Made by a program: the position numbers and the translations under genes. From assembly GCF_027706845.1 (NCBI RefSeq), contig NZ_JAQGCZ010000001.1, forward strand, positions 620,001 to 684,000: a DNA stretch of 64,000 nt, in the 5' to 3' direction. Positions 10,166 through 23,637 of this stretch are shown here, piece by piece (positions within the stretch are counted from its first letter, which is position 1; each line of letters begins with the position of its first letter). Source of the stretch: Mycolicibacterium sp. BiH015 (GTDB taxonomy: Bacteria; Actinomycetota; Actinomycetes; Mycobacteriales; Mycobacteriaceae). The notes below the pieces were generated by a model, which saw only the letters and a list, made by a program, of their open reading frames with translations, did not search any database and was not told the origin of the DNA.

Positions 10166-10218
10166 ATGACTCGCAAGATCAATGCCGGTTGACGCGCCGC
10201 AGAATCATCCGCGGCTGA
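10166..10218 (+). pseudogene. frameshifted Arg-rich micropeptide copy
   Basis: The ATG follows an excellent CAAGGAGGTGAG site, but the frame ends after 8 codons (MTRKINAG). Adding one base near 10182 restores a 17-codon frame with RLTRRRIIRG at its end and TGA at 10216-10218, the standard family length. So it is a one-base-deleted copy, unless this is a sequencing error or a deliberate 8-residue peptide. Confidence 0.6.
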
Positions 10219-10268
10219 ACCGACACGAGACCTGCCTCGACCCGCGCGCAACCACACCATTAATTCGC

Positions 10269-10284
10269 TGACGGCCGGCCGTCA
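10269..10284. promoter_or_regulatory. 16-bp palindrome upstream of kinase gene
   Basis: TGACGGCCGGCCGTCA is perfectly palindromic and lies about 100 bp before the kinase start codon. A dimeric regulator site is plausible. The rest of 10219-10380 holds nothing else I can support. Confidence 0.35.
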
Positions 10285-10380
10285 ACAAAGGTACTGACGG
10301 ATGTCTGAACTGGTAGTGCACCTAACGAGCGGAGTCTAGTGTAGACAAATTGACGATTGCTGTTCTTGTACGGGGGGACC

Positions 10381-13300
10381 ATGGAAGGAACGCCTTTCGG
10401 GCGCTACCAATTGGTGGATCTGCTAGGTCGCGGCGGCATGGGGGAAGTGTGGCGCGCGTACGACACGGCGACAGATCGTGTCGTCGCCCTGAAAGTGCTC
10501 CCTGCCCAGTGGGCTCAAGACGATCTCTACCTGCAGCGATTCCGCCGCGAGGCACACGCCGCAGCCCGCCTGACTGAACCGCACGTCGTTCCCATCCACA
10601 ACTACGGCGAGATCGAGGGTCGACTTTACGTCGACATGCGTCTCATCGACGGTAGCGATCTGCACTCACTCCTCACCAGCGGTCCGCTGTTACCCGCCCG
10701 TGCCATCGCGATCATCGAGCAGGTGGCGATGGCGCTCGACGCCGCGCACCACGAGGGCCTCGTCCACCGCGACGTGAAACCGTCCAACATCCTGGTGGCC
10801 CGTTACGACTTCGCCTACCTGATCGATTTCGGTATCGCTCGCGCGTCTCAACAGACTGCCCTGACCAATTCGGGCCACTTGGTGGGCACCGTCCAATACA
10901 TGGCGCCGGAACGGTTCCGCGAGGGTGCCTGCGACGTTCGCTCGGATGTCTACTCGCTGACATGCGTTCTGGCGCAGTGCCTCACCGCAACGGCACCGTT
11001 CTCCGGCCAGAGCGTCGAGCAGCAGATGATGGCGCACCTCACGGCTCCTCCACCGCAGCCTTCGCAGATCAACCCCGGCGTGCCCGCAGGGTTCGATGCC
11101 GTGATCGCCAAGGGGATGGCCAAGAATCCCGATGACCGCTATCAGACGGTTATCGAGCTCGCCGAGGCCGCAGCCAGAGCTCTCGGCGGGACCGCAGCCT
11201 CCACGGCAGGCCTGCCGGCGACGATGGCCGGGGGGCTCGACGACAGCGAGTTCGCGGCGACGATGCTGGGGGACGGTCCGCTCAACACCGCGGCGCCTGA
11301 CACATTGGATCCCGGAGGTGTCGGCAGTTCGATCGACAACCTGCTCGATCGTGCGGTCGCGGCGATCAACCGCGGCGATCGCGACGTTGCCTCAGCGCTC
11401 GCCGACCAGGTGCTCGCAGTCGACCATCGCAACGCCGAAGCCGAGGACCTGCTCCGCGCACCCACCACGGGCGGCGAAATCCGACGATTGACCCTCGTCT
11501 CGGCCGACCTCGTCGACGGCGCCGACATGGCGATGCGCATGGATCCGGAAACCCACCGACTTCTCGTCGGCCGGTTCCGCGACCTTGTCCGCCAGACAGC
11601 CGACCGGTACGAGGGCCACGTCAGCGGAACCAAAGGCGATGGATTGCTCGTCGTATTCGGCTACCCCAACGCGCACGAGGACGACGTCTACCGTGCCGTC
11701 CAGGCGGGCCTTGACATCTCCCGCGACGTCGAGCGCCTCGGCGAACAGGCCCGTCGTCGGTTCAACACGACCATCGAGGTCCGGATCGGCGTGCATCGCG
11801 GGCCGGTCTATCTCGACGACAATCAAGACGACGTCTACGGATTGGCCGTCACACTGGCCGCGCGGGTGTCTGCCCTTGCACCCGCCGGCGGTGTCGCCGT
11901 CTCACATTCCGTGGAACCGTTGATCCGCAACGCGTTTGACCTGGAGAGCCTCCCCGCGGAGGCGATGGCCGGCACCGACGAAGTCATCAATCCCTTCCGC
12001 GTTCTGGGTGAACGCGCCTACGCGGCAGCGACACCCATGGGTCCGCTGGTCGGTCGCGATCGGGAGTTCGCCAGACTCCAGAAGAGCTGGGAAAGAGCCC
12101 GAGCGGGAACATTGACCACCCCGGCGATCGTCTTCCGAGGCGAAGCGGGCATCGGCAAGAGCCGACTTGCCGCGGCAGCTTCGGAACTGGCGCAGCAGGA
12201 CGGAGGGACCGTCCTCGAATTGGTCGGCTCCCCAGTGCATACGGATGTCGGCCTGTATCCCGCACGACTACTCCTGGAGCGGCGCGCGGGCATCTCACGG
12301 GTGACAGAGCCCGCCCGCAGACTCCAGCTCCTCGAAGCCGAGGTGAGGGCTCAAGGATTGAACGCCGACTCCGAGATTCCCCTGCTGGCACCCATTCTCG
12401 GGCTGGACGCATCACTGGGCTACCGAACTCCGCAGGCGGAGGGCCGCAAACTTCAGGAGTTGATTGCCACGGCGCTGAGGGAGTACCTCTTGGCCGCACT
12501 CGGCAAGGGACCGGGACTGCTGCTCGCCGAGGACGCGCACTGGTTCGACCCGTCCACGTTGGATGTTCTGAGTTCGCTGCTGAATACAAGCGACGGTCGT
12601 CTACTCGCCGTGGTCACTGGGCGCGACGGTAACTGGCTGCCTGACAACTGGCCCGCCAAGGTGTTCAATCTCGCTCCGCTGACCGACCAACAGACCGATG
12701 AGCTGGTGCTTGCCCTAGACCCGAGGATCGCGCCCGAACAGTGTGCGGCCGTCAGGCAGCGCTGCGGCGGCGTCCCGTTCTACATCGAGCAGGTGGTCAA
12801 CGGACTCGGCTCCTCCGGCGATACCGATGGGCCCACCGTCCCCGACTCTCTCTATGAGCCGCTGTTCGCCCGCCTTCTCGCTGTCCCGGACGTCGTGCCC
12901 GTCGTCGAAGCAGCCGCAGTCATCGGCCGCCATGTGGATCGTGGACTGCTGGTGGCCGTCTCCGGGCTGAGCGAAGACAAGGTCGACGACGTCATCGACG
13001 AGCTCGAAGACGCGAAGGTGTTCGAACCGCACGGACCCGACGCGTGGAAGTTCCGGCACGAGCTGCTCCGTGAAGTCGCCGCCGAATTGGCGCCGCCGAG
13101 CGTACGACGTGCGCTGCACGGCAAGACGGCTGACGTCCTGATGGAAGTTGCTGCCGGGGAACCAGACTGGCGGCTAGTCGCCAGTCACTACGAGCACGCC
13201 GAGCGCCACGCCGATGCCGCGACGTCCTATCGGCGGGCATCTGCTGATGCGCGTCGGCGCGGCGCCCTCGAAGAGGCTCGCACCTACCTCAGACATTCGT

Positions 13301-14523
13301 TGACACAGGTGGCACTGTGCCCGCCGGGTCGCGACAGAGATCGCCTGGAGATCGAGCCCAGGCTGGAACACTGCTTCCTCACGTCGACCGCCGAGGGGTA
13401 CCAAAGCCCCTCGGTGACTGAAGATTTGGAGCGGTGCCTGCAACTCGTCGGCTCTGACCTGCACGACGATCAAGTCTTCGGGACGTTACTCTCGGTCAGC
13501 AGCTACTACATCAACAAGTCCGACCTGCGCCGCGCCCGTCAGCTTTCAGAAGTCATGCTGGCCAAACCAGACGAGCAGAGGCAGCAGTGGAGCCCTGCGG
13601 TAGCCTGCGTTCTCGGAATGGCCGCCTTCATGCGCGGCGAATTCGAGCAGGCTCGAACGCACTTTGAAGAGGCCAGCCGCGGTTTCGACGACCAGGGCCA
13701 GAACAGCATGGAAGAACTCTGGTTCATACCCTGGGACATCGTCGCACTGGCCTACGAGCACCTTTCGATCTATCACCTCCTGCACGGCGACATCGCCGAA
13801 GCCGAAATCAACATGGCGAAGGCAGTCAGCAGAGGAGATGAACTGGCGTTCCCGTGGGGGCCGTACAACCAGGCCTACGCCAGTCACATCGAGATCTGGT
13901 TGCGATGCGAAGCAGGACAGCTCGACCGCGCGGAAAAGCTCGTCACCAATATGGTCGAGCACGCCGAGCGTTACGGTATCGACTTCTGGCAGGCGCTCGG
14001 AGCGACCCTCGGGGTGGGGATCGTTCACGGCCAAGTTTTGCTGAACTCCGATAGCGTTGAGGTCGAGCAGATCTCAACGCAAGTCGAACAGCTCACACAG
14101 TCCACCGACCTATGGCGATCCCTCGGGCTGTACGCCTACCAAACTCAGTACGACTGTGTCATCGGTCGACTCCTGATCGCTGCCGGCCGGCTGGACGAGG
14201 CACGCGAACGGATCAACACGGCATTGCAGATCGCCGAGGACACCGGGATGCACTTCTACGATGCGGAACTGCTGCGCGCTCGGGCGAAGACGTACCTCGA
14301 TCCCGACACCAGAGCAGCTGACCTCGAGGCTGCGGCGGAAGTGGCCCGCCACCAGGACGCTCCGCTGTTCGAACTGCGATCGGCGCTCGATGATTTCGAA
14401 CTTCGAGGTGGAGAAATTCTGCCGGCGCTTCGCGAGGCGCTGGACAAGCTTCCCGGAGATTGCGAGCTTCCAGAAGCAGTTCGGGCACGAAATGCTCTCA
14501 CTGTCGGGCAGCTCGGCGCTTAG
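10381..14523 (+). CDS. Ser/Thr kinase - class III nucleotidyl cyclase - STAND/AAA ATPase fusion
   Basis: 1380 residues, apparently cytoplasmic (no membrane segment). Kinase, residues 8-270: Gly-loop GRGGMGEV, Lys38, HRDVKPSN (catalytic Asp131), DFG 149-151, threonine-containing activation loop, then APE. Cyclase-like domain, about 365-540: metal Asp376 (SADLVDG), Lys418 and Asp420 (KGD), and Arg495 present, but Thr491 replaces the usual transition-state Asn, so cyclase activity is doubtful. ATPase: Walker A GEAGIGKS 587-594 and Walker B LLLAEDAHWFD near 713, then a long helical TPR-like C-terminus. The plan resembles PknK, with a cyclase inserted and no C-terminal HTH seen. The ATG at 10381 follows ACGGGGGGACC; a TTG at 10357 is the alternative. 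It overlaps the convergent protease gene by 4 bp. It is the obvious candidate to phosphorylate the FHA-SARP partner. Confidence 0.9.
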   Translation: MEGTPFGRYQLVDLLGRGGMGEVWRAYDTATDRVVALKVLPAQWAQDDLYLQRFRREAHAAARLTEPHVVPIHNYGEIEGRLYVDMRLIDGSDLHSLLTSGPLLPARAIAIIEQVAMALDAAHHEGLVHRDVKPSNILVARYDFAYLIDFGIARASQQTALTNSGHLVGTVQYMAPERFREGACDVRSDVYSLTCVLAQCLTATAPFSGQSVEQQMMAHLTAPPPQPSQINPGVPAGFDAVIAKGMAKNPDDRYQTVIELAEAAARALGGTAASTAGLPATMAGGLDDSEFAATMLGDGPLNTAAPDTLDPGGVGSSIDNLLDRAVAAINRGDRDVASALADQVLAVDHRNAEAEDLLRAPTTGGEIRRLTLVSADLVDGADMAMRMDPETHRLLVGRFRDLVRQTADRYEGHVSGTKGDGLLVVFGYPNAHEDDVYRAVQAGLDISRDVERLGEQARRRFNTTIEVRIGVHRGPVYLDDNQDDVYGLAVTLAARVSALAPAGGVAVSHSVEPLIRNAFDLESLPAEAMAGTDEVINPFRVLGERAYAAATPMGPLVGRDREFARLQKSWERARAGTLTTPAIVFRGEAGIGKSRLAAAASELAQQDGGTVLELVGSPVHTDVGLYPARLLLERRAGISRVTEPARRLQLLEAEVRAQGLNADSEIPLLAPILGLDASLGYRTPQAEGRKLQELIATALREYLLAALGKGPGLLLAEDAHWFDPSTLDVLSSLLNTSDGRLLAVVTGRDGNWLPDNWPAKVFNLAPLTDQQTDELVLALDPRIAPEQCAAVRQRCGGVPFYIEQVVNGLGSSGDTDGPTVPDSLYEPLFARLLAVPDVVPVVEAAAVIGRHVDRGLLVAVSGLSEDKVDDVIDELEDAKVFEPHGPDAWKFRHELLREVAAELAPPSVRRALHGKTADVLMEVAAGEPDWRLVASHYEHAERHADAATSYRRASADARRRGALEEARTYLRHSLTQVALCPPGRDRDRLEIEPRLEHCFLTSTAEGYQSPSVTEDLERCLQLVGSDLHDDQVFGTLLSVSSYYINKSDLRRARQLSEVMLAKPDEQRQQWSPAVACVLGMAAFMRGEFEQARTHFEEASRGFDDQGQNSMEELWFIPWDIVALAYEHLSIYHLLHGDIAEAEINMAKAVSRGDELAFPWGPYNQAYASHIEIWLRCEAGQLDRAEKLVTNMVEHAERYGIDFWQALGATLGVGIVHGQVLLNSDSVEVEQISTQVEQLTQSTDLWRSLGLYAYQTQYDCVIGRLLIAAGRLDEARERINTALQIAEDTGMHFYDAELLRARAKTYLDPDTRAADLEAAAEVARHQDAPLFELRSALDDFELRGGEILPALREALDKLPGDCELPEAVRARNALTVGQLGA

Positions 14524-15752
14524 GATTGCCCGGCCTCGGTCGCGGGTGCTTTGGAGGTGAGCTCCAGCGCGAGCCCGATGCCGGAGAACAGTGCCGCCAT
14601 GGCCACCGGGACGACGAGATAGAGGCCGAGCAGGATTTCGATGACATTGCCGCCGAACAGCGAGGAGACCAGGTCTCCCGCAGCCAGCCACCATGCCCAG
14701 GTGCCACCCACGAGCAGGACGATGCCGCCGATGATGCTGAAGGCACCGTAGCCCGCCAGCCACAAGGGCTCGTCGTTCTCGGTGACACCACGCAGCTTAC
14801 GGCTCAGCGCTTCTCGGGAGCGTGGTGAAAGGTCGGGCTCGTCGAGGTAGTCCGAGAGCGCAATGTGTCCGTCCACTTCGAGGATAGGCATACCGTTCTC
14901 GAAGATCCCGATCAGTTGGGTGATTGCCAGACGCCAGCAGACGCTGACCAGCAGTACCGATCCGGCGACGGTGTGCGTCATGATCAGCAGCACCGACATG
15001 GTCACGAGGTCCACAGCCAACCCGGCGAGTGCGTTGACGATGCGAGCGCGCTTCGGCAGGGTGATCCCGTCCGAGCAGTCGACGTAGAAACACATGGCGC
15101 CCCAATAGAATCCGCAACCGGCAGACCGCGGGGTGCGCCCGTAGTGAACCAGCGCCACCGCGTGCCCGAGTTCATGGAGGCCCGACAGGGCAAATCCCAG
15201 CAGCATTCCCACCGTCGCGTCCACCCACGGATCGCTGCTGACCTGCGGACCGTCCGGGCGGCCCATGATCAGGCACGCAAGTCCGGCGATGACGATCACT
15301 GTCAGCGCGAACCGGCCCGACCACGATTCGATCACCGGCATGACCACGCGGTGGACCCGGCGCGCGATGCTGTCGATGCCGGTGAACTCGATCCCCGAGC
15401 GGCTGAATGTCACGCGCTTGACAGGGGTTATGTCGATGGCCCCTAAAGGCTGATCAGAGATCACTTGTTCCGCGACGAGCGCATCGACAAGCTCGCAGTC
15501 GGCACCGGTGCCACCGAGCCCGAGCTTCACATCGTCGAGCGTTGCGGCATCGCGGATCAGCGCCGGGATCTCGCCGGCTCGGTCGTGGGCGATCAGCAAC
15601 GGAGACCCGCCCGGGGTGCAGACGATCAAACCGCGCTTACTCACCCGCCAGCTGACGCCCTCGGCGAAGGCGAGGGCATTGTCGGAGTCGCCGATCTCGG
15701 CGAGCTGCGGCAAGGGTGCCTGCGCAATGGTGTCGGTTGGTTTTCCGGACAT
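14520..15752 (-). CDS. M50-type membrane metalloprotease (YydH-like)
   Basis: 410 residues. The N-terminal soluble part (about 20-110; SWRVSKRGLIVCTPGG ... VDALVAEQVISD) resembles the small winged-helix PqqD-like modules of peptide-modification systems; that is my impression only. Several membrane segments follow, with zinc motif HELGH at 193-197 and the distal EVDGH at 292-296, both typical of M50 site-2-type proteases. Several cysteines (CGFYWGAMCFYVDCSDG) lie between them. The ATG at 15752 follows AGCAGGG; the longer frame back to 15959 crosses a hairpin and site B and is rejected. Site B lies 62 nt upstream. It may process the micropeptides or the 46-residue peptide, or cleave a regulator; context suggests this, nothing proves it. 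Confidence 0.82.
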   Translation of the reverse strand: MSGKPTDTIAQAPLPQLAEIGDSDNALAFAEGVSWRVSKRGLIVCTPGGSPLLIAHDRAGEIPALIRDAATLDDVKLGLGGTGADCELVDALVAEQVISDQPLGAIDITPVKRVTFSRSGIEFTGIDSIARRVHRVVMPVIESWSGRFALTVIVIAGLACLIMGRPDGPQVSSDPWVDATVGMLLGFALSGLHELGHAVALVHYGRTPRSAGCGFYWGAMCFYVDCSDGITLPKRARIVNALAGLAVDLVTMSVLLIMTHTVAGSVLLVSVCWRLAITQLIGIFENGMPILEVDGHIALSDYLDEPDLSPRSREALSRKLRGVTENDEPLWLAGYGAFSIIGGIVLLVGGTWAWWLAAGDLVSSLFGGNVIEILLGLYLVVPVAMAALFSGIGLALELTSKAPATEAGQS

Positions 15753-15814
15753 CGTGGCCCTGCTTTCGAAGTCGTGTGTCTGCCGTCGGTGTGCCCATAC
15801 GGTCTGCGGTCGGT

Positions 15815-15831
15815 CTTGGAGCTTTCTAAAC
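15815..15831 (-). promoter_or_regulatory. SARP-type box, site B
   Basis: On the minus strand GTTTAGAAAGCTCCAAG, 62 nt upstream of the protease start codon. It differs from site A by one base and has the same spacing to its gene. Confidence 0.6.
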
Positions 15832-15844
15832 GGCCTTGGCATCA

Positions 15845-15881
15845 CCCCGGGTGCGCCGCTGCGAAGCGGACGCACCCGGGG
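15845..15881 (-). terminator. very stable hairpin between minus-strand micropeptide and protease
   Basis: The outer arms CCCCGGGTGCG (15845-15855) and CGCACCCGGGG (15871-15881) pair perfectly. Inside them CCGCT and AGCGG pair around GCGA, leaving one unpaired A. The total is a 16-bp stem with a four-base loop. With no U-run it could be an actinobacterial-type terminator ending the micropeptide transcript before the site B promoter, or a structured RNA element. The remainder of 15753-16016 shows no further gene. Confidence 0.55.
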
Positions 15882-16016
15882 GATGGTTGGAACGGCACTC
15901 GAATCTCCCCCAAGATTCTCGTGCGTTCCGAGACAGTGCCGCCTCACGTGGATCGTCATCGCCGCTGTCCCCTCAACAGCAGCGAATCGTGGATCGTGAG
16001 GCGGCAGGTCGTAGGG

Positions 16017-16070
16017 TCAGCGACTGCCGCGTCGACCTCTGGTCAGCCGGCGTTCGATCCGTCGAATCAA
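16017..16070 (-). CDS. Arg-rich micropeptide on the minus strand (TTG start)
   Basis: 17 residues: MIRRIERRLTRGRRGSR, initiated at TTG with a near-perfect AAGGAGGTG site 7 nt upstream. It is one of the closest matches to the family consensus. It lies between the FHA-SARP gene and the protease gene, with site C 49 nt upstream. Its opposite orientation shows the peptide unit is dispersed across the locus rather than just tandemly amplified. Confidence 0.75.
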   Translation of the reverse strand: MIRRIERRLTRGRRGSR

Positions 16071-16119
16071 GTCTTTCCACCTCCTTGCGCCCTCACTGAA
16101 CGCAGGGTCGCGGGGTGGG

Positions 16120-16136
16120 CTTGGAAGTTTCTAGGA
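16120..16136 (-). promoter_or_regulatory. SARP-type box, site C
   Basis: On the minus strand TCCTAGAAACTTCCAAG. Two CCWAG elements 11 bp apart precede the minus-strand micropeptide gene by 49 nt. Confidence 0.55.
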
Positions 16137-16141
16137 GGCGG

Positions 16142-17281
16142 CTACTCGCCGGAGGAACGGTCTATCTCGAAAGTGAGCGCGGTGTCGCCGATCGTGATCC
16201 GGTCACCGTCGGCCAATGCGGCGCTTCCTTGAACCTTTGTGCCTTGCAACATTATTCCGTTGGCAGAACCGGCGTCATTGATGACGTGACCGGCGCCGGT
16301 GTAGAGGATGACGGCGTGGTAGCGACTGGCTCTCGGATCGGTCATCACGACATCGTTTCCGCTGTGACGGCCGATTCTCGTGACCGGACCCGCGACCGGG
16401 TAGACGGTGCCGGCATCGGTCCGTAGCGCTGCGCCGGCTGACGGCGTGAAGGCCAGGTGGTGTGCCGTGGCGATCAAGGTGTCGGCGGCGGTCGTCTTGG
16501 CCGAGCGCTCGACGTTCAGTGGCTGCTGTTGCAGGATCGCGTCGTGGAGGTCACGGACACTGGGGTCCGGGTCGATCCCAAGCTCCTGCGCCAGCAGTGA
16601 TTTCAGGCGGCGAAACGCCTCCAGCGCGTCTGACTGGCGTCGGGTGACGTAGTAAGCGGTCATCAACTGTGCCCAGAGCGGCTCGCGGAACGGATGTGCC
16701 GCGACGAGTTTTTCGAGACCGCTGATCACGGACTCGGCACGTCCGCAGGCGATCTCTGCTTGGGCGTGCATGGTGTGCACCGAGACCTTGTCCTCGGTCA
16801 GCGCGACTGCAAGCGCTTCGACGAAGGCGAAGTCGCGGAGATCTTCCAGGAACTCACCGCGCCACTCGGAGAGCGCGGCTTCGAAATGGGTGCTCGCATC
16901 CTCGAATCGGCCCACTGCCGCAGCTTCGAGACCCTCGCTTCGGCGTTGGTTGAACCGGCCGAGGTCGACATTGGCGTCTGCGACGACCAGCCGGTAGCCG
17001 GGCGCGGCCTTCTGCAGTATGTCGCGGCCGTCGGCGCCGCCGGTACGGAATAGGCGGCGCAGGTTGGAGATGTAGGCGTGCAGGCTGGCGCGCGACTCCG
17101 ACGGCGGGTCCTCGCCCCACACAGCGCTGACGAACGAGTCGGTGGCCACGACTCGGTTGCGGTTGACCAACAGCGCGGCGAGCACGGCACGCTGCTTCGG
17201 TGTCCCTGCAGGGATGGGCGAATCGCCGACCGACATCTGCAGCGGTCCCAGCACGGTGAACGCCGGTCCCGGTGTCGCCAT
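16142..17281 (-). CDS. SARP-family activator with C-terminal FHA domain (EmbR-like)
   Basis: 379 residues. An OmpR-type winged helix (about 8-100; VLAALLVNRNRVV ... SLHAYISNLRRLFR) is followed by a bacterial transcriptional activation domain (about 105-255; FVEALAVALTEDKV ... AFRRLKSLLAQELGIDPDP). The C-terminal FHA domain (about 285-375) keeps the phosphothreonine-binding residues: RIGRHSGND, then SRYHAVI, then NDAGSANG. The arrangement is that of EmbR, which PknH phosphorylates and which activates transcription. The ATG at 17281 follows GAGGAGGGGG; upstream in-frame codons would enter the divergent promoter holding site D. As the only SARP in the locus it is the best candidate to bind sites A-D. 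It is transcribed divergently from the main micropeptide array. Confidence 0.9.
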   Translation of the reverse strand: MATPGPAFTVLGPLQMSVGDSPIPAGTPKQRAVLAALLVNRNRVVATDSFVSAVWGEDPPSESRASLHAYISNLRRLFRTGGADGRDILQKAAPGYRLVVADANVDLGRFNQRRSEGLEAAAVGRFEDASTHFEAALSEWRGEFLEDLRDFAFVEALAVALTEDKVSVHTMHAQAEIACGRAESVISGLEKLVAAHPFREPLWAQLMTAYYVTRRQSDALEAFRRLKSLLAQELGIDPDPSVRDLHDAILQQQPLNVERSAKTTAADTLIATAHHLAFTPSAGAALRTDAGTVYPVAGPVTRIGRHSGNDVVMTDPRASRYHAVILYTGAGHVINDAGSANGIMLQGTKVQGSAALADGDRITIGDTALTFEIDRSSGE

Positions 17282-17370
17282 CCCGATCAGCCCCCTCCTC
17301 GGATTCCCATGCTGACCATAACCGGCCGATGACCAGCGAAGAGGCAGGACACCGGCACCGTCACACGGAC

Positions 17371-17387
17371 TCCAAGAAACCGCCAAG
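17371..17387 (+). promoter_or_regulatory. SARP-type box, site D
   Basis: TCCAAGAAACCGCCAAG: two exact CCAAG repeats whose starts are 11 bp apart, between the FHA-SARP gene and the main array. The position allows control of both directions. The rest of 17282-17409 shows nothing I can support. Confidence 0.6.
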
Positions 17388-17409
17388 AACGCGCCGCGAC
17401 AGTGTCTCC

Positions 17410-17490
17410 ATGAATCACGAGAACCGAGAAGTAAACACCCTTCGCCAGTTGCAACGCCGGTTGACGCGCGGCAGGCGTAATAGCCGATGA
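17410..17490 (+). CDS. Arg-rich micropeptide with N-terminal extension, main array member 1
   Basis: 26 codons. Ten extra residues (MNHENREVNT) precede LRQLQRRLTRGRRNSR, which is a perfect family unit. The ATG at 17410 has no clear ribosome-binding site; a TTG at 17449 would give a 13-residue product without the usual N-terminus. Site D ends 22 nt upstream of the ATG, so this could be a near-leaderless transcript. Confidence 0.6.
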   Translation: MNHENREVNTLRQLQRRLTRGRRNSR

Positions 17491-17524
17491 CCGGACGAGC
17501 ACCGAGCTTAAGGAGGTGACCGAG

Positions 17525-17578
17525 ATGATTCGACAACTTGAGCGCCGACTCGTTCGTGGTCGATCCGGCGGTCGCTAG
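17525..17578 (+). CDS. Arg-rich micropeptide, main array member 2
   Basis: 17 residues: MIRQLERRLVRGRSGGR. TAAGGAGGTGACCGAG precedes the ATG. Charge comes from six Arg; Ile2, Leu5 and Leu9 would line one face of a helix. No signal peptide or membrane segment. Confidence 0.8.
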   Translation: MIRQLERRLVRGRSGGR

Positions 17579-17615
17579 AACATCAATCTCTGGAGCTTCG
17601 AAAGGAGGCAAACCA

Positions 17616-17765
17616 ATGATCCAACGACTAAGGCCTCGCCGGACTCGCGCCCGGCGATCCAAGATGCGCGGCACAGCGGCTTCATCAATACCTCACCGAC
17701 GGGAAAGTGAATTGATCGAGCACGTGTCACGGCGAATAATCCGCCACCGGCGCCATCGGGCTTAA
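17616..17765 (+). CDS. Arg-rich double unit, 49 residues, main array member 3
   Basis: The first unit is MIQRLRPRRTRARRSK, with AAAGGAGGCAAACCA before its ATG. The frame then continues through about 16 linker residues into a second unit, LIEHVSRRIIRHRRHRA. That unit could also start alone at TTG 17712, which would give exactly 17 residues. It is either a fused double unit or two overlapping translation products. Confidence 0.7.
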   Translation: MIQRLRPRRTRARRSKMRGTAASSIPHRRESELIEHVSRRIIRHRRHRA

Positions 17766-17809
17766 TCCACAACGTCCATTTGAGCGACGCAATTCAGGAG
17801 GTGACAGCG

Positions 17810-17860
17810 ATGCTTCAACATATTCAGCGACGACTCACGCGGGCCAAGCGCAACAGGTAG
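17810..17860 (+). CDS. Arg-rich micropeptide, main array member 4
   Basis: 16 residues: MLQHIQRRLTRAKRNR, with CAGGAGGTGACAGCG before the ATG. An RRLTR core and a basic tail, close to consensus. Confidence 0.8.
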   Translation: MLQHIQRRLTRAKRNR

Positions 17861-17887
17861 CAGCACAGGAGAACGGCGACACCCGAA

Positions 17888-18106
17888 GTGTTTCGAACCC
17901 TACGACATCAGTTGACTCACGGTACGCGCCGCGGCGAACCGCGGCGAATAGTCCACTGCATCGGCATACGAGTGAATTACCGACTCAACCGACGTCTTAG
18001 TCGGGCTCGACGGCTCACGGCTGTGACACCAATGCAGGCCCTGGTCACTCCAGTGCGACGACGAATGCACCGCCGTCTTACCCGCGTACGGCGAACTGGC
18101 CGTTGA
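17888..18106 (+). CDS. Arg-rich triple unit, 72 residues, main array member 5
   Basis: It starts at GTG after an AGGAGAAC site. Three family-like units lie in one frame: MFRTLRHQLTHGTRRG, then VNYRLNRRLSRARRL, then VRRRMHRRLTRVRRTGR. The last is exactly 17 residues from its own potential GTG. Linkers between units lack stop codons. This is the longest member and shows the unit can be concatenated. Confidence 0.65.
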   Translation: MFRTLRHQLTHGTRRGEPRRIVHCIGIRVNYRLNRRLSRARRLTAVTPMQALVTPVRRRMHRRLTRVRRTGR

Positions 18107-18144
18107 ACTCGGCATCACCACAACCGCGAAAGGCAGGTGACCCA

Positions 18145-18198
18145 ATGATCCGACATATCGCACGCCGGCTCGCGCGCCACAGGCGTCGGGGCGGTTGA
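18145..18198 (+). CDS. Arg-rich micropeptide, main array member 6
   Basis: 17 residues: MIRHIARRLARHRRRGG. AAAGGCAGGTGACCCA precedes the ATG. Ala replaces Thr in the RRLTR core. Confidence 0.8.
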   Translation: MIRHIARRLARHRRRGG

Positions 18199-18239
18199 TC
18201 TCCACCGAGATCCAAGAGACACGACGGGAATCCATCACG

Positions 18240-18293
18240 ATGGTCCACCACACACGGCGAAGAATCACACGTGCGCGGCGCCACAAGATGTAA
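18240..18293 (+). CDS. Arg-rich micropeptide, main array member 7
   Basis: 17 residues: MVHHTRRRITRARRHKM. Its ribosome-binding site is weak (ACGGGAATCC), unlike most other members, but length and the RRxTRARRH pattern are preserved. Confidence 0.65.
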   Translation: MVHHTRRRITRARRHKM

Positions 18294-18322
18294 CCGGGGT
18301 CCGTCGCCCTCGATATGGCTTG

Positions 18323-18361
18323 ATGATCCAACATCGAGACCGACCACTTGGTCCTGGGTAG
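18323..18361 (+). pseudogene. decayed micropeptide copy
   Basis: The 12-codon frame MIQHRDRPLGPG begins like a family member but loses the RRLTR core and the basic tail, and has no good ribosome-binding site. Probably a decayed unit, or chance. Confidence 0.35.
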
Positions 18362-18404
18362 ACGCCAAAACAGTTGATCTGCAACGGTTCTGATTGGAGA
18401 CGGA

Positions 18405-18458
18405 ATGCTACGAACAGTGCAACGGCGGCTGGCGCGCGCCCGGCGACACCGGCTATAA
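18405..18458 (+). CDS. Arg-rich micropeptide, main array member 8
   Basis: 17 residues: MLRTVQRRLARARRHRL. TTGGAGACGGA precedes the ATG. Confidence 0.75.
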   Translation: MLRTVQRRLARARRHRL

Positions 18459-18514
18459 CCGTCGTCGAAGAGACCGCAATTTGGTTCGAATCCAGAAAGG
18501 AGAGTGACCTTCCG

Positions 18515-18565
18515 ATGATCCGTCAAACTCACCGACGACTCACCCGCGGCTTCCGCCGCGGCTGA
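18515..18565 (+). CDS. Arg-rich micropeptide, main array member 9
   Basis: 16 residues: MIRQTHRRLTRGFRRG, after AAAGGAGAGTGAC. Twin of the member at 18867; most differences between the twins are silent, and only the last residue changes. Confidence 0.8.
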   Translation: MIRQTHRRLTRGFRRG

Positions 18566-18607
18566 CCACCGCATTCAGATGACGATCGACCAGAGGAGGC
18601 GACATCG

Positions 18608-18661
18608 ATGATTCACCTCATGAAGCGCCGGTGTACCCGCGCCCGGCGCCATAGAAGCTAA
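18608..18661 (+). CDS. Arg-rich micropeptide, main array member 10
   Basis: 17 residues: MIHLMKRRCTRARRHRS, after AGAGGAGGCGACATCG. Cys replaces Leu of the RRLTR core. Twin of the member at 18959. Confidence 0.8.
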   Translation: MIHLMKRRCTRARRHRS

Positions 18662-18712
18662 CCGGGACGTTCCACAAGTCAGGTTCCTACGCGGAGCCCG
18701 AAAGGAAAATGC

Positions 18713-18766
18713 GTGATCTTAAATCTGCAACGCCGGCTGACGCGTTCCCGGCGCCATAAGCAATGA
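18713..18766 (+). CDS. Arg-rich micropeptide, main array member 11 (GTG start)
   Basis: 17 residues: MILNLQRRLTRSRRHKQ, starting at GTG after GAAAGGAAAATGC. Near-consensus core. It lies between the two duplicated blocks. Confidence 0.75.
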   Translation: MILNLQRRLTRSRRHKQ

Positions 18767-18866
18767 CCACCTGCCCGCTTCGCCCGACGCGGACACGGCT
18801 TAGTTGCGAATCATCGCAACAGTGGAACACACGCGGCTCGAATCCAGAAAGGAGAGTGACCCTCCG

Positions 18867-18917
18867 ATGATCCGTCAAACTCACCGACGACTGACCCGCG
18901 GCTTCCGCCGTAACTGA
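18867..18917 (+). CDS. Arg-rich micropeptide, main array member 12
   Basis: 16 residues: MIRQTHRRLTRGFRRN, after AAAGGAGAGTGAC. Paralogue of 18515 with a Gly-to-Asn final residue. Confidence 0.8.
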   Translation: MIRQTHRRLTRGFRRN

Positions 18918-18958
18918 CCACCACATTCAGATGACGATCTACCAGAGGAGGCGACATC

Positions 18959-19012
18959 GTGATTCACCTCATGCAGCGTCGGTGTACCCGCGCCCGGCGC
19001 CATAGAGGCTAA
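18959..19012 (+). CDS. Arg-rich micropeptide, main array member 13 (GTG start)
   Basis: 17 residues: MIHLMQRRCTRARRHRG, after AGAGGAGGCGACATC. Paralogue of 18608 with Lys-to-Gln and Ser-to-Gly changes. Last member of the array. Confidence 0.8.
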   Translation: MIHLMQRRCTRARRHRG

Positions 19013-19093
19013 CCGGGACATTCCACAAGTCAGGTTCCTACGCGGGGGCCAACTACATCCTCCCGATCACCGGCTTATCAGCTGAACCTTCAC

Positions 19094-19113
19094 TAGGCTC
19101 GGTCCCGTGGGCG
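19094..19113 (+). repeat. right copy of 20-bp direct repeat bounding the accessory locus
   Basis: TAGGCTCGGTCCCGTGGGCG, identical to 9727-9746. It contains the GTG start (19107) and the first codons of the GCS-like gene. Confidence 0.9.
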
Positions 19114-20585
19114 AAGAACTGAAGCAGGCCGAGTTCAGTCGCGCGCACCGGCGCGAATACCGCCGCAAGGTGCAGCTCTGCCTCGACGTGTTCGAGACCA
19201 TGCTGGCGCAGTCGAGCTTCGACTTCGAGAAGCCGCTGACCGGCATGGAGATCGAGTGCAATCTGGTCGACTCCGCCTATCAGCCGGCGATGAACAACTC
19301 CGACGTGCTGGAGGCGATCGCCGACCCGGCGTATCAGACCGAGCTCGGCGCCTACAACATCGAGTTCAACGTCCCGCCTCGGCGCTTGCCGGGGCGGGCC
19401 GCCCTCGACCTCGAAGACGAAGTCCGCGCGAGCCTCAACGCCGCCGAAACCAAAGCCAACAGCGACGGTTCGCACATCGTGATGATCGGTATCCTGCCGA
19501 CCCTGATGCCCGAGCACCTCACGGGCCGCTGGATGAGTGAGTCGATCCGCTACCAGGCTCTCAACGATTCGATCTTCACCGCGCGCGGCGAGGACATCCT
19601 CATCGACATCGCCGGACCCGAGCGGCTCAGCCTGCAGACCGCGTCGATCGCACCCGAATCCGCCTGCACTAGTATGCAATTGCATCTGCAGGTGTCGCCG
19701 GCCGACTTCGCCAGCAACTGGAACGCCGCCCAGGTGATCGCCGCGCCCCAGCTCGCCCTCGGAGCCAACTCGCCGTACTTCTTCGGCCACCATCTGTGGG
19801 CCGAAACGCGCATCGAGCTGTTTACCCAGGCCACCGACACCCGCCCCGACGAACTCAAGACCCAGGGCGTCCGTCCCCGCGTGTGGTTCGGCGAGCGCTG
19901 GATCACCTCGATCTTCGACCTGTTCGAGGAAAACGTTCGGTACTTCCCGTCGCTGCTCCCCGAGCTCTCCGACGAGGATCCGGTGGCCGAACTGGCCGAG
20001 GGCCGCACCCCGCACCTGTCGGAGCTACGGCTGCACAACGGGACGATTTACCGCTGGAACCGCCCGGTATACGACATCGTGGACGGGCGTCCCCATCTTC
20101 GGGTGGAGAACCGGGTGCTGCCCGCAGGCCCGACGGTCGTGGACATGATGGCGAACTCCGCCTTCTACTACGGGGTGCTGCGGGCACTGTCCGAAGAGGA
20201 TCGCCCACTGTGGACCAAGATGAGTTTCGCTGCCGCAGAAGCGAATTTCGTCGCGGCCGCCCGTCACGGGATGGAGGCGAGGCTGTACTGGCCCGGCGTC
20301 GGCGAAGTGACGCCCGACGAGCTCGTCCTGCGGCAACTCCTCCCGCTGGCCGAGGAGGGGCTGCGTCGCTGGGAAGTGTCCGCCGAGGTCCGGGACCGCT
20401 ACCTCGGGGTGATCGAGGGACGCGCCAAGACGGGCCGCAACGGTGCGGCATGGCAGTCCGCCACGGTCTCCGCGCTGCAGGTCCGCGGGATGAGCCGGCC
20501 CGAGGCCCTGGCCGAGATGCTGCGGTTGTACTGCGAGCGGATGCACGCCAACGAACCGGTGCACACCTGGGACCTGCCCGGCTGA
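19107..20585 (+). CDS. glutamate-cysteine-ligase-like protein (GCS2-type)
   Basis: A 492-residue carboxylate-amine ligase fold. Motifs include GMEIECNLVD near residue 46, YNIEFNVPPR near 84, a central ACTSMQLHLQVSP strand and VENRVLPAGPTVVDM near 330, matching the ATP/Mg-binding core of gamma-glutamyl ligases. It is unlike EgtA elsewhere in this window, so its amine substrate need not be cysteine. The GTG start lies in the right 20-bp repeat. The 93 bp upstream belong to the island end, so its original promoter was probably the methyltransferase operon. A second methyltransferase follows 23 bp downstream. Confidence 0.8.
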   Translation: MGEELKQAEFSRAHRREYRRKVQLCLDVFETMLAQSSFDFEKPLTGMEIECNLVDSAYQPAMNNSDVLEAIADPAYQTELGAYNIEFNVPPRRLPGRAALDLEDEVRASLNAAETKANSDGSHIVMIGILPTLMPEHLTGRWMSESIRYQALNDSIFTARGEDILIDIAGPERLSLQTASIAPESACTSMQLHLQVSPADFASNWNAAQVIAAPQLALGANSPYFFGHHLWAETRIELFTQATDTRPDELKTQGVRPRVWFGERWITSIFDLFEENVRYFPSLLPELSDEDPVAELAEGRTPHLSELRLHNGTIYRWNRPVYDIVDGRPHLRVENRVLPAGPTVVDMMANSAFYYGVLRALSEEDRPLWTKMSFAAAEANFVAAARHGMEARLYWPGVGEVTPDELVLRQLLPLAEEGLRRWEVSAEVRDRYLGVIEGRAKTGRNGAAWQSATVSALQVRGMSRPEALAEMLRLYCERMHANEPVHTWDLPG

Positions 20586-20608
20586 GTCCCGCGGGTACCT
20601 TGGCGTCC

Positions 20609-21283
20609 ATGGCCGAGGTGATGGACTGGGACAACGTGTATCGCGGCGAGAGTGAGTTCGAGGGACCGCCGCCGTGGAGCATCGGCGAGCCGCAGCCCGA
20701 ACTCGCCGCCCTGTGGCGGGACGGCAAGTTCCGCAGCGAAGTGCTCGACGCCGGATGCGGGCACGCCGAGCTGTCACTGGCCCTGGCCGCCGACGGCTAC
20801 ACGGTGACCGGCATCGACATCAGCCCAACGGCGGTCGCGGCGGCCACCGAGGCCGCCGCCGAGCGCGGCCTGTCGGAACGTGCGTCCTTCGTCGCCGCCG
20901 ACATCACCTCGTTCACCGGATTCGACGGCCGGTTCTCCACGATCGTCGACAGCACGCTCTTCCACTCCATACCGGTCGAGTCACGCGACGGGTACCTGCA
21001 GTCGGTGCACCGGGCCGCCGCAGCCGGGGCCGGATTCTTCGTGCTCGTCTTCGCCAAGGGCGCGTTCCCGCCCGAGATGGAGCAGGGCCCCAACGAGGTC
21101 TCGGAAATCGAACTCCGCGAAACGGTTTCGACATACTGGACCATCGACGACATCCGTCCCGCGCTCATCCACACGAACGTGCCGAAGATTCCCGGCATGC
21201 CGCCCCCGCCGCTGGACATGCTCGACGACACGGGCCGGATGCGGATGCAGGCGTTCCTGCTGAGCGCCCACAAGGCGTCCTAG
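20609..21283 (+). CDS. class I SAM-dependent methyltransferase
   Basis: A 224-residue protein of the thiopurine/TehB-like group: WDNVYRGESEFEGPPPWSIG at the N-terminus, motif I VLDAGCGHAELSLALA near residue 45, TGIDISPTA after it and VDSTLFHSIP as the post-motif strand. The ATG at 20609 is used. It probably forms an operon with the upstream ligase-like gene. Substrate unknown. Convergent with the MftD-like gene, 4 bp apart. Confidence 0.82.
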   Translation: MAEVMDWDNVYRGESEFEGPPPWSIGEPQPELAALWRDGKFRSEVLDAGCGHAELSLALAADGYTVTGIDISPTAVAAATEAAAERGLSERASFVAADITSFTGFDGRFSTIVDSTLFHSIPVESRDGYLQSVHRAAAAGAGFFVLVFAKGAFPPEMEQGPNEVSEIELRETVSTYWTIDDIRPALIHTNVPKIPGMPPPPLDMLDDTGRMRMQAFLLSAHKAS

Positions 21284-21287
21284 CGCC

Positions 21288-22451
21288 TCACACCCCGAGG
21301 TCGCGGCGGAATCGGGGCGGGATCAGCAGATCCTCGGGGCGCAGTTCGTGGACCGACGACAGCCCGAGCCCCAGCAGCGCGGAATCGATTCCGCCGCGCA
21401 GGATGTCGAGAACGTTCTCGACGCCGGCCTGGCCTCCCGCGGCCAGACCCCACAGATATGCGCGGCCGATCATCACCGCGCGGGCGCCGAGCGCGACCGC
21501 CTTGACGACGTCGCTGCCCCTGCGGATGCCGCCGTCGAGGACGATCTCGACCTGGTCGCCGACGGCTTCGGCGATCGCGGGCAGCGCACGGATCGGCGCC
21601 GGGGTGCCGTCCAGGTTGTTGCCACCATGGTTGGACACCGACACCGCGGTCACGCCGGCATCGACGGCGCGCTTCGCATCGTCCACGCGCATCACACCTT
21701 TGAGCATGAACGGCCCACCCCACTGCTCACGCAGCCACGCGATGTCCTCCCACGTCGGCAGCGGTGTCTGCATCCACTCGCCGTACGCACCGAAGAACGT
21801 CGGCGCCTGCCCGCCGTCGGAGAGGTTGGGAGCCGTCAGATCCGGCACGCGGCCGGTCCTGGCGAAGTCGAGAAGCCAACGCGGCCTGCGGATCCCCTCG
21901 GGAGCGAACCGCACCATGGCCTTGAGGTCCATCTTCTCCGGAATCGAGGGGCTGCCCCAGTCGCGCCCGTTGGAGAAGGACCAGTCGGTCGTGATGATGA
22001 GGCCGACCGCGCCGGCGGCGCGGGCACGTTCCATCCGCGCCAGCAGCTTGTCACGTCCGCCGGTCCAGTACATCTGGAAGAACGTCTGCGGATTGGCCGC
22101 GGCGACCTCTTCGATGGCCTTGCTGGCGAACGACGACAGTCCGATCGGGATGCCGCGGGCCGCGGCCGCACGCGCCACCGCGACCTCGCCGTCGGGGTGG
22201 ACGGCCTGGACGCCGGTGGGTGAGATCAGGACGGGCATCGAGAGGCTTTGTCCCATCACGGTTGTCGCCACGTCACGCTTGCTGGACAGCCCCGCGACAT
22301 GCGGTGCGAAGCCCAGCTCTGAGAACGCCGACAGATTGTCGCCGACGGTGATGCCCTTCTCCGATCCGGCGACCAGGGCACTGTAGACGCTGGGTGGCAG
22401 GCGCTTCTTCGCGCGACGCTGTGCTTCGGCGACGGTCTCGAACCAGGACAT
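21288..22451 (-). CDS. MftD-like FMN-dependent alpha-hydroxy-acid oxidoreductase
   Basis: A 387-residue TIM-barrel of the lactate oxidase/cytochrome b2 family: SMPVLISPTGVQAVHPDGE, then GLIITTDWSFSNGRDWG, then the active-site strand VSNHGGNNLDGTPAPI and LDGGIRRGSDVVKA binding FMN. It closely resembles mycobacterial MftD, which oxidises the mycofactocin precursor. No mftA, B or C gene is in this window, so this is a paralogue or an unlinked MftD-type enzyme. The ATG at 22451 follows AAGGAGACGAGC. Divergent from mftM, which supports a mycofactocin link. Confidence 0.8.
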   Translation of the reverse strand: MSWFETVAEAQRRAKKRLPPSVYSALVAGSEKGITVGDNLSAFSELGFAPHVAGLSSKRDVATTVMGQSLSMPVLISPTGVQAVHPDGEVAVARAAAARGIPIGLSSFASKAIEEVAAANPQTFFQMYWTGGRDKLLARMERARAAGAVGLIITTDWSFSNGRDWGSPSIPEKMDLKAMVRFAPEGIRRPRWLLDFARTGRVPDLTAPNLSDGGQAPTFFGAYGEWMQTPLPTWEDIAWLREQWGGPFMLKGVMRVDDAKRAVDAGVTAVSVSNHGGNNLDGTPAPIRALPAIAEAVGDQVEIVLDGGIRRGSDVVKAVALGARAVMIGRAYLWGLAAGGQAGVENVLDILRGGIDSALLGLGLSSVHELRPEDLLIPPRFRRDLGV

Positions 22452-22602
22452 GCTCGTCTCCTTCATCCATCGACGACGTTATGACGCGCAGCGCCGGAAT
22501 GGACTCGCCGAATGGGCAGTTTCCCACCCATCCGGACGGGCCGCATATCACACCCGATCGGGGCGCGCATAGGACCCATGCACACTAATAGCGTTGTCGG
22601 AC

Positions 22603-23478
22603 ATGGCGACAGCTGTTCTCGACCCCCTTGCGCCGGCACCGCACGGCACGTGGAGCGGTCGCGGTGTCCGGGTGACTCGCAGACAGGGCCTGCATCGCCG
22701 GCACGGCGGTCGGCACACCGTCTGCACGCCGCGCTTCTGCGCGCAACGCCAGGGTGCCCTCTTGACCGTCGAGCATGACCTGACGCCCGACGAACTGTGC
22801 GATGAACTGGCGGTGATGCTCGCCGAACAACTCGTCGACACCGGTGCCGTGCGTGGGCAATCAGAGTTCGAACTGGTCTTCACCGGCATCGTGCGGTCCA
22901 CCGTTCACGGCGGCCTGCCCGCGTGGCTGCGGTTCTACCGCAACTCGCTGGACAAGCTCGAACACGGCACCACACCGTTCGCCGCGATCCATACCTGGGC
23001 CGCCGGGCAGGTCCAGGGCAGCCGCATGGTCGATCTCGGGTCGTGCTTCGGATTCTTTCCGCTGAGGATGGCGCGGCGCGGGATCGAGGTAGTGGCAACA
23101 GATCTCAGCGATCCGGCGATGCACCTGCTCAAGCAGATCAGCTCACACCTGCGGCGGCCGTTGACCACTCTGGCATGTGACGCCGCCGCGGTGCCGCTCC
23201 CCGACCGCAGCGCCGACACCGTGACGGCATTGCACCTCATCGAGCACCTGCCGACCGACGCGATCACCGCAGTGCTCGACGAGGCGGTCCGGCTGGCCCG
23301 CCGCCGGGTGGTGGTCGCCGTGCCGTTCGAGGATTCGCCGCGGGAATGCTACGGGCATATCCAACGCTTCGACCTCGCCACGCTGCGGCGGATGGCCGAT
23401 GACATGGCCGAGCGCCATCGCGGAATATCGGCCCGTGCCTACGAATTCCGCGGCGGCTGGCTGATCCTCGACCGCTGA
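22603..23478 (+). CDS. mftM: mycofactocin oligosaccharide methyltransferase MftM
   Basis: A 291-residue SAM methyltransferase. The N-terminal family region (DELAVMLAEQLV, FELVFTGIVRSTV, WLRFYRNSLD) precedes motif I MVDLGSCFGFFPLRMA near residue 145, ATDLSDPAM and the LHLIEHLPTD strand. This combination is characteristic of MftM, which methylates the glucose chain on mycofactocin. The family is known to lie outside the main mft cluster. The ATG at 22603 or an in-frame TTG at 22594 could start it; neither has a strong ribosome-binding site. It neighbours mycofactocin-type alcohol dehydrogenases. Confidence 0.78.
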   Translation: MATAVLDPLAPAPHGTWSGRGVRVTRRQGLHRRHGGRHTVCTPRFCAQRQGALLTVEHDLTPDELCDELAVMLAEQLVDTGAVRGQSEFELVFTGIVRSTVHGGLPAWLRFYRNSLDKLEHGTTPFAAIHTWAAGQVQGSRMVDLGSCFGFFPLRMARRGIEVVATDLSDPAMHLLKQISSHLRRPLTTLACDAAAVPLPDRSADTVTALHLIEHLPTDAITAVLDEAVRLARRRVVVAVPFEDSPRECYGHIQRFDLATLRRMADDMAERHRGISARAYEFRGGWLILDR

Positions 23479-23494
23479 CTCGCACCGCAGACTC

Positions 23495-23629
23495 GCACCG
23501 CGAGCGCGCGTGTCTGCACAGCAACACGCCGCGGATCGCGTCGGTCAGCGCGCGGTCATCCCCGACGAGCGCGCGCGAGATACCAGGAACGCCCGCGTGT
23601 CGGCGCGCAGACACGCGCGCTCGCGGTGC
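23495..23629. repeat. 23-bp perfect inverted repeat between convergent genes
   Basis: The arms 23495-23517 and 23607-23629 (core GAGCGCGCGTGTCTGC) are exact complements separated by 89 nt of GC-rich sequence. It fills the gap between mftM and the response regulator gene. It may act as a two-way terminator; arms of this sort recur in mycobacterial intergenic DNA to my knowledge. Confidence 0.75.
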
Positions 23630-23637
23630 AACAGCTG

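Follow-up and report, generated by a model that had tools for sequence, protein, structure and literature searches.

The 64-kb window analysed here (Mycolicibacterium sp. BiH015, contig NZ_JAQGCZ010000001.1, positions 620,001 to 684,000; coordinates below count from its first base) contains an insert with about eighteen variant copies of one arginine-rich peptide gene of 16–17 residues, and with a gene for a putative intramembrane protease whose predicted structure joins a domain resembling a RiPP recognition element (RRE; RiPP, ribosomally synthesized and post-translationally modified peptide) to a site-2 protease. This protease is the constant partner of such peptides, and the pairing recurs across actinobacterial genera. 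We place just short of even the chance that these genes represent an ultra-small RiPP-like class, in which cationic precursors of 15–17 residues would be read and cut by a single RRE-site-2-protease, without a tailoring enzyme: a two-gene module across Actinomycetota that in some mycobacteria would take the form of an inserted library of some 15–18 cassettes, controlled by a Streptomyces antibiotic regulatory protein (SARP) and fired by a STAND-type (signal transduction ATPase with numerous domains) kinase to attack the membranes of competitors or of the producer's own phage-infected cells.

Between 17410 and 19012, where the first-pass annotation had reported thirteen tiny open reading frames (ORFs) of one family, all thirteen closed frames were recovered, twelve of them 16–17 codons long (starting at 17525, 17712, 17810, 18053, 18145, 18240, 18405, 18515, 18608, 18713, 18867, and 18959), and two stopless copies and one decayed copy were added. 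The stopless copies, 17616 and 17972, read through in frame into 17712 and 18053, giving ORFs of 49 and 44 codons, and the decayed copy 17888 lies in the same frame as 17972/18053. Fifteen copies in the array and three outside it (9991, 10065, and 16070 on the reverse strand), besides a frameshifted relic at 10166, agree with the earlier estimate of about eighteen for the locus. The same locus is present in M. iranicum DSM 45541 (L071), with a protease 90% identical, 15 copies by the scoring matrix described below, and a 26-codon first ORF encoding an identical protein. The peptide features of the window are as follows.

9991–10044, forward strand: peptide copy MIRHMSRPLARARKARA, left block; syntenic copy in M. 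iranicum
10065–10118, forward strand: divergent peptide copy MLRRLICRKTRGRGSRV, left block
10166–10218, forward strand: frameshifted relic of a peptide copy; M. iranicum counterpart intact
16017–16070, reverse strand: peptide copy MIRRIERRLTRGRRGSR; TTG start, Shine-Dalgarno sequence AAGGAGG
17410–17490, forward strand: first array ORF, 26 codons, N-extended, MNHENREVNTLRQLQRRLTRGRRNSR; same protein in M. iranicum
17525–17578, forward strand: peptide copy MIRQLERRLVRGRSGGR
17616–17765, forward strand: 49-codon ORF of two fused copies (17616, 17712)
17810–17860, forward strand: peptide copy MLQHIQRRLTRAKRNR
17888–18106, forward strand: open frame of decayed copy 17888 plus two fused copies (17972, 18053)
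18145–18198, forward strand: peptide copy MIRHIARRLARHRRRGG
18240–18293, forward strand: peptide copy MVHHTRRRITRARRHKM
18405–18458, forward strand: peptide copy MLRTVQRRLARARRHRL
18515–18565, forward strand: peptide copy MIRQTHRRLTRGFRRG, recent duplicate of 18867
18608–18661, forward strand: peptide copy MIHLMKRRCTRARRHRS, recent duplicate of 18959
18713–18766, forward strand: peptide copy MILNLQRRLTRSRRHKQ, GTG start
18867–18917, forward strand: peptide copy MIRQTHRRLTRGFRRN
18959–19012, forward strand: peptide copy MIHLMQRRCTRARRHRG, GTG start

Start-to-start spacing was 81–115 nt in 11 of the 14 array intervals (periodicity about 92 nt), and a tandem duplication of ~350 bp repeats 18515 and 18608 at 18867 and 18959 with 93–94% DNA identity. 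Ten of 18 copies have a strict Shine-Dalgarno match ahead of them, compared with a background of 2.8% of all ATG, GTG, and TTG codons, which leaves the claim that most copies have their own strong site barely true. Several copies are degenerate, TTG is used as a start beside ATG and GTG, and the 17410 ORF is longer than 16–17 codons. A position matrix trained on the same window copies that it then scores picked out 17 ORFs scoring ≥8 in the window, of which 15 are copies and the remaining two score 8.0 and 8.3. At that threshold, three mononucleotide shuffles of the window gave 0, 0, and 0 ORFs; the array is more than chance. An antisense ORF at 17900–18574 (reverse strand) was rejected by a crude test, antisense frames containing 8–21 stops in the window and 8–17 in M. 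iranicum.

Pairs of copies (17 from the window, 15 from M. iranicum) differed on average by 0.39, 0.31, and 0.65 at the first, second, and third codon positions, respectively, and by 0.28, 0.21, and 0.63 in core codons 7–14. The ratio of nonsynonymous to synonymous substitution rates (dN/dS) between the two species was 0.27 over six syntenic pairs (22.3 synonymous and 17.7 nonsynonymous changes), a figure computed without 18515 and 18608, as second window copies (0.08 and 0.61 by themselves), and without any copy that lacks a syntenic counterpart; it was 0.31 among window paralogues, 0.20 among those of M. iranicum, and 0.15 for the protease. The 17-residue peptide at 16070 showed zero amino-acid change past the start codon. 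Amino-acid-level selection acts on the peptides, as first proposed, and no dN/dS near 1 was seen. Much of the array is unalignable between the two species, which implies that copies turn over.

The partner gene is as follows:

14520–15752, reverse strand: RRE-site-2-protease fusion (HELGH ... EVDGH), 410 aa from the start used; NF041824-like, by model and fold matches

In the predicted structure model, the protein has the β3–α3, PqqD-like fold of an RRE, followed by the HExxH motif, distal Asp, and S2P fold of a site-2 (M50) protease. On this model, an RRE-like domain, of the kind that recognises RiPP precursors, would be joined to a site-2 protease, with MpaP of daptide clusters as a distant relative; a single-sequence fold of a protease fragment reached a predicted local distance difference test score of 41 and was not used. 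Against NF041824 (daptide MpaP), the protease scored 86.7 bits (E 1.7e-24) and two homologues 113.9 and 120.2 bits, all below the cut-off of 300; against NF058609 (epipeptide LiaK-YydH), it scored 30.3 bits (cut-off 225). The sole match of the protease profile among sequences of solved structures was unrelated (E 0.49). Plasmid records gave 12 distant matches (28–34% identity), five of them annotated mpaP. Phage origin was rejected on the basis that none of 50,697 phage records matched the protease.

This resemblance raised the question of whether the insert is a daptide cluster, or an epipeptide one, whose precursors are aberrant. MpaP of daptides is the model that the protease resembles most, and several precursors to a cluster are the norm for daptides according to the accessible parts of PMC10036551, which also give the daptide leader motif as ELExMEAP. 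Models for MpaB, MpaC, MpaD, and MpaM were nevertheless unmatched by the genes scanned (the 46-aa ORF, kinase, protease, FHA-SARP, GCS2-like gene, and six flanking window genes), whereas two Streptomyces plasmid clusters carry all four beside mpaP. Neither an ELExMEAP-like motif nor the invariant C-terminal Thr occurred in any of 53 peptides (0 of 53), and the precursors here are arginine-rich and 15–17 aa long, as opposed to about 50 aa with an aliphatic core and C-terminal Thr in daptides. On this evidence the locus does not qualify as a daptide cluster, and the explanation, largely refuted, is very improbable.

The protease was searched for with a four-sequence profile (E ≤ 1e-25) in overlapping genome samples, so that the tallies are not additive: hits came from 7 of 397 genomes for the order, 4 of 394 for the class, 8 of 396 for the genus, and 4 of 301 for the family (each figure counting the window's own genome), and from 2 of 112 in the family of G425. 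Close homologues occupy 13 distinct loci in families f1, f9, and f16 (window and M. iranicum included), 11 of which carry 15–17-residue peptides of the type M-[ILV]-R-x-[LMI]-x-R. Peptides were not found at the other two loci (G275 and EPa45), which fall in one clade of the protease tree; the EPa45 protease gene has an in-frame stop. Weak homologues in G133, G554, and G523 (E 1e-31 to 1e-37) were kept out of the counts and had no peptides in the stretch covered.

At other loci, peptides were first sighted by visual inspection of the region upstream of the protease, in M. manitobense (e.g., MIRRLSRLARAVRPGR) and G090 (MIRRLFRLARASRWG). A model-free scan written after that sighting (Shine-Dalgarno site, 12–22 codons, ≥28% R/K) was positive in five of the first seven other loci, compared with five ORFs in a 376 kb control. 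The G228 peptide (MLRRLRRLARARSWR), which has a weaker Shine-Dalgarno site, was spotted by eye and then by a laxer scan; of four later-added loci, the laxer scan found three positive and one negative. Further examples are MLRRLRRLARGRLWR (G425), MLRRIRRLTRKFRLR (G264), MIRKLTRLARAIRGRI (G1243), and MIRRLARRLTRGRTRRY (Williamsia limnetica); G481 has four MIRKL peptides, and the scan recovered eight peptides with Shine-Dalgarno sites in Mycobacterium sp. GA-1285. With the window-trained matrix, GA-1285 yielded nine members and the Williamsia locus one, and a 556 kb control gave 3, 1, and 0 ORFs at ≥6, ≥8, and ≥10. The nine remaining protease loci gave none at ≥6; seven of them bear peptides of a second subtype. 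A peptide motif written after the positives were known gave 22 hits in 211 kb across the 11 loci besides the window and M. iranicum (9 of 11 positive) vs. 3 in the 556 kb control. Similar arrays, whose absence from related genomes would have counted against the first-pass annotation, are present there.

In an all-vs-all comparison of frames of at least 100 residues from ten peptide loci (M. iranicum omitted as a near copy), the protease was the only gene common to all ten among the 14 largest groups inspected. The other groups found in at least five loci were, by position, frames overlapping the protease gene, except for STAND regulators (5 of 10). Peptide type also followed the protease tree: the four RRLTR-type loci form one clade (support 0.956, including a Gordonia protein of unknown peptide content), and the RL[AT]R type tracks the other branches.

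Peptide properties were computed on 53 peptides (17 from the window, 15 from M. iranicum, and 21 from nine other loci), a set that left out the 26-residue ORF, relic 10166, the divergent third peptide of M. manitobense, and GA-1285 copies that have a CTG start or are truncated or fused. Mean net charge was 6.4 to 6.7 by set, and the hydrophobic moment at 100 degrees per residue (0.48, 0.51, and 0.53) topped all 1000 shuffles in every set, with no excess at 160 or 180 degrees; permuting alignment columns gave p 0.004 (5000 trials). By these calculations the peptides are amphipathic as helices. Conservation is concentrated at the N-terminus ([ILV]2 in 48 of 53, R3 in 40, [LMI]5 in 48, and R7 in 51), the C-terminal half being the more variable part. 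Among the roles first proposed, a cationic amphipathic peptide fits best given the helical moment, and RNA-binding peptides of the arginine-rich motif type are not favoured, since helical periodicity and the protease partner point to the membrane and a RiPP-like setting. More broadly, the array might be a repeat acting at the DNA or RNA level (regulatory decoys, attenuators, or arginine-rich RNA-binding peptides), the peptide being incidental or RNA-binding. Its periodicity and arginine content would suit such a role; however, third codon positions are the most variable, dN/dS is low, the peptides combine helical amphipathicity with a constant protease partner, and no Rfam match reached gathering score in 8000–24000. 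We give this reading very little weight.

The insert also encodes two large regulators and one further small ORF:

9825–9965, forward strand: 46-aa ORF MKFDICGAFRNG...; M. iranicum counterpart 22 aa
10357–14523, forward strand: 1388-aa protein kinase/nucleotide cyclase/AAA_16/TPR (STAND-type) regulator, by Pfam; TIGR03903 below cut-off
16142–17281, reverse strand: FHA-SARP transcription activator (Trans_reg_C, BTAD, FHA)

Four SARP-type promoters accompany them:

9744–9778, forward strand: box, 10 nt, GATCTT; before the 46-aa ORF and left peptide copies
15799–15833, reverse strand: box, 10 nt, GACCGT; before the protease gene
16104–16138, reverse strand: box, 10 nt, GACCCT; before the 16070 peptide
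17369–17403, forward strand: CCAAG-N6-CCAAG, 10 nt, GACAGT; before the array

The box AG[AG]AA..CCAAG (CCAAG-N6-CCAAG in fuller sites) occurs four times in the window, all within the insert and each in the same orientation relative to the following gene. It also occurs four times in the M. iranicum locus, six times in that of GA-1285, and zero times in the 376 kb control, where the plain repeat CTTGG-N6-CTTGG occurs three times, once beside the G019 SARP; a stricter form of the box was absent from ten other protease loci. The hexamer exactly 10 nt past CCAAG fits nAnnnT in 14 of 14 sites in three genomes (background 2.7%), a pattern chosen on inspection and, with the four M. iranicum sites orthologous to those of the window, representing about ten independent sites. 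Boxes and hexamers match, as sequence patterns, the layout of SARP promoters, in which direct repeats spaced 11 bp apart sit near the −10 element, as given in the accessible parts of PMC10936776. An FHA-SARP regulon including the array and the RRE-protease is thereby predicted. At the array, 6 nt separate the end of the hexamer from the ATG of 17410; from this spacing, the first ORF probably starts on a leaderless transcript. In GA-1285 (L093), boxes precede the peptide array, the protease, and two further peptide blocks; the remaining ones precede a 68-aa ORF (18452, forward strand) with a peptide behind it, and a different sort of small protein, which has a signal-like N-terminus (12980, reverse strand), from which we take the regulon to be wider than peptides and protease. 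The 22-aa counterpart of the 46-aa ORF in M. iranicum reads MKFEKTDKGSIAVVGIATRALC, and the tail VVG[VI]ATR is common to both; this ORF is possibly a second, fast-changing peptide.

The first-pass annotation had proposed testing whether such peptides cluster with FHA-SARP, M50, and PknK-like genes. The M50 link held in 10 of 10 loci; the regulators proved separable. In G019, the same chromosomal site (methyltransferase and GCS2-like gene) holds a kinase (75% identical) and an FHA-SARP (61%), with neither protease nor peptide between those genes (matrix and motif gave one unrelated ORF each elsewhere in the 20-kb stretch), and G010 has a kinase-SARP pair without protease or peptides on a 14.9-kb contig, its genome lacking a protease match. 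The regulators therefore do not require the peptides. FHA-SARP as the constant partner was rejected: the 20 loci of its best homologues (376 kb) held no family member, one unrelated ORF scoring 9.8. FHA-SARPs of the genus are a large regulator family, with matches in 118 of 118 genus genomes sampled, many with several full-length paralogues at 50–60% identity; a kinase-domain match lay within 20 kb in 16 of 20 FHA-SARP loci examined. In M. iranicum, the kinase match breaks near 14190 into two frames, through a genuine frameshift or an error in the draft.

Regulators of this kind bear on two other roles for the peptides. As pheromone-like signals, the peptides would be trimmed and released by the site-2 protease and sensed by a TPR/STAND protein of kinase or LuxR type. 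In firmicutes, proteases of this clan release pheromones, and STAND or TPR regulators lie near the module in the window, M. iranicum, GA-1285, M. manitobense and G481 (LuxR-STAND), and G1243 (TPR-LuxR); no such regulator was found among the neighbours scanned in G425, G228, G264, or Williamsia. Yet up to about 18 diverging copies per genome are ill-suited to signalling, STAND relatives occur in just 5 of 10 compared loci, and kinase and SARP are found without peptides; we think signalling unlikely. Alternatively, the peptides may act in the producer as an inducible self-poison (e.g., in abortive anti-phage defense), the STAND kinase sensing attack, the SARP inducing, and the protease disposing of or unleashing them. 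A STAND sensor joined to a kinase, the failure to recognise an exporter, and the repeat-bounded insert would all be in keeping with this, as would matches in a PADLOC run on ten proteins in all: the kinase domain matched PD-T4-6 kinases, and a ResIII/DEAD helicase gene beside the GA-1285 protease (L093, 10633–12324) matched PbeA (90.7 bits). Those matches are partial, however, covering the kinase domain only and the helicase part only, LuxR-STAND proteins matched only the DNA-binding end of a CARF model, and SARP and LuxR-STAND regulators usually serve antibiotic clusters, so we judge self-poisoning to be no likelier than signalling.

The boundaries of the insert are marked by a perfect 20-bp direct repeat (0 expected by shuffles):

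9727–9746, forward strand: left copy, TAGGCTCGGTCCCGTGGGCG
19094–19113, forward strand: right copy, overlapping the start of the GCS2-like gene

Among ten empty sites compared, L101 keeps the repeat once (19 of 20 bases, one end base changed), and the others diverge; at 12 of 29 loci taken around the GCS2-like gene in other genomes, that gene lies no more than ~100 bp from the end of the methyltransferase match. The repeat-bounded segment and the empty sites elsewhere identify the 9.37-kb block as an insertion between the methyltransferase and GCS2-like genes. A doubt about the repeat as boundary, raised by the differing left side in M. iranicum, was dropped in view of the single copy in L101. 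No integrase was found among the large ORFs of the insert, and no exporter was recognised in it. To the right of the insert lie mycofactocin genes above their NCBIfam cut-offs, mftD (21288–22466, 716 bits) and mftM (22594–23478, 368 bits), and RRE proteins are used in RiPP pathways, so that the module might serve the mycofactocin RiPP. We regard this as the least probable explanation: both genes lie beyond the insert and its repeat, 72 of 78 genus genomes have the GCS2-like gene of the insertion site vs. 8 of 396 with the protease, and no group of at least three protease loci in the ORF comparison held mftD and mftM. In GA-1285 (L093, 15955–17510), IS21-type genes (IstB, Mu-type transposase domain) lie between peptide blocks. 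Further along the window (28591–28677), short tandem repeats of 15-, 18-, and 21-bp units, including TGGTCATGGTCGTGGTGGTCA, occur in or near a coding region.

The explanation that we prefer, and hold to be about evenly poised between right and wrong, is that a SARP-switched array yields peptides whose N-terminal half is bound by the RRE-protease, which cuts them at the membrane, and that the products attack the membranes of competitors, as a predicted new type of very small antimicrobial peptide. Its support is split: expression control is read from sequence, and binding, cutting, export, and activity we infer. The STAND kinase/cyclase would read a signal and phosphorylate or otherwise license the FHA-SARP, which would switch on the array, the left block, and the protease gene. 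Each of the tiny ORFs would then be translated, with a leaderless transcript serving the first. The RRE domain would hold each peptide by its conserved N-terminal half (M-I-R-x-L/M-x-R), and the peptide would be cut at or in the membrane by the site-2-protease domain. The cationic amphipathic product may insert into competitors' membranes, the many variants giving dose and spectrum. Given that no exporter was recognised, release would be via the protease itself, a general transporter, or lysis.

The literature covered yielded no description of this peptide family, subscription journals being largely outside that coverage. Daptides (with MpaP, an RRE-dependent intramembrane peptidase), also actinobacterial, come closest in having an RRE-site-2-protease beside several related small precursor genes, as far as the available accounts go, and differ in the tailoring genes, precursors, and protease scores described above. 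Epipeptides (YydF/LiaK-YydH) share an HExxH maturation protease of the same superfamily, but their precursor differs, and neither a radical SAM epimerase nor a YydIJ-type ABC transporter was seen among the insert's large genes. In microcin C, the heptapeptide MccA is paired with MccB, which adenylates, whereas the clamp-like domain of the present system is joined to a protease. The leaderless bacteriocins LsbB and enterocin K1 also combine a short amphiphilic peptide without leader and a site-2 protease; in the portions of that literature available, RseP is the receptor on the target cell, while here the protease is encoded with the peptides and has an RRE-like domain. The pair of an FHA-SARP and a Ser/Thr kinase resembles regulation of the EmbR-PknH type. 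The promoters likewise resemble those of AfsR-type SARPs, with direct repeats 11 bp apart near −10 (PMC10936776, in its accessible parts), although the predicted regulon here is a tiny-peptide array plus an RRE-protease. From its sequence, the module is predicted to operate as an RRE-guided RiPP system would if only precursor and protease were left.

Mining for RiPPs and bacteriocins needs annotated precursors or known tailoring enzymes, and ORFs of 15–17 codons usually go unannotated, so a class of this kind has likely been missed by both routes. If our reading is right, it would be among the simplest RRE-guided peptide systems, and an RRE could serve only a protease, with a precursor that hardly exceeds the clamp in length. 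Mycobacteria and their relatives would then offer a natural library of variant cationic peptides, along with a testable FHA-SARP regulon with a defined promoter grammar. Should the chemistry be confirmed, these peptides would form a class of their own within RRE-guided ribosomal peptide systems.

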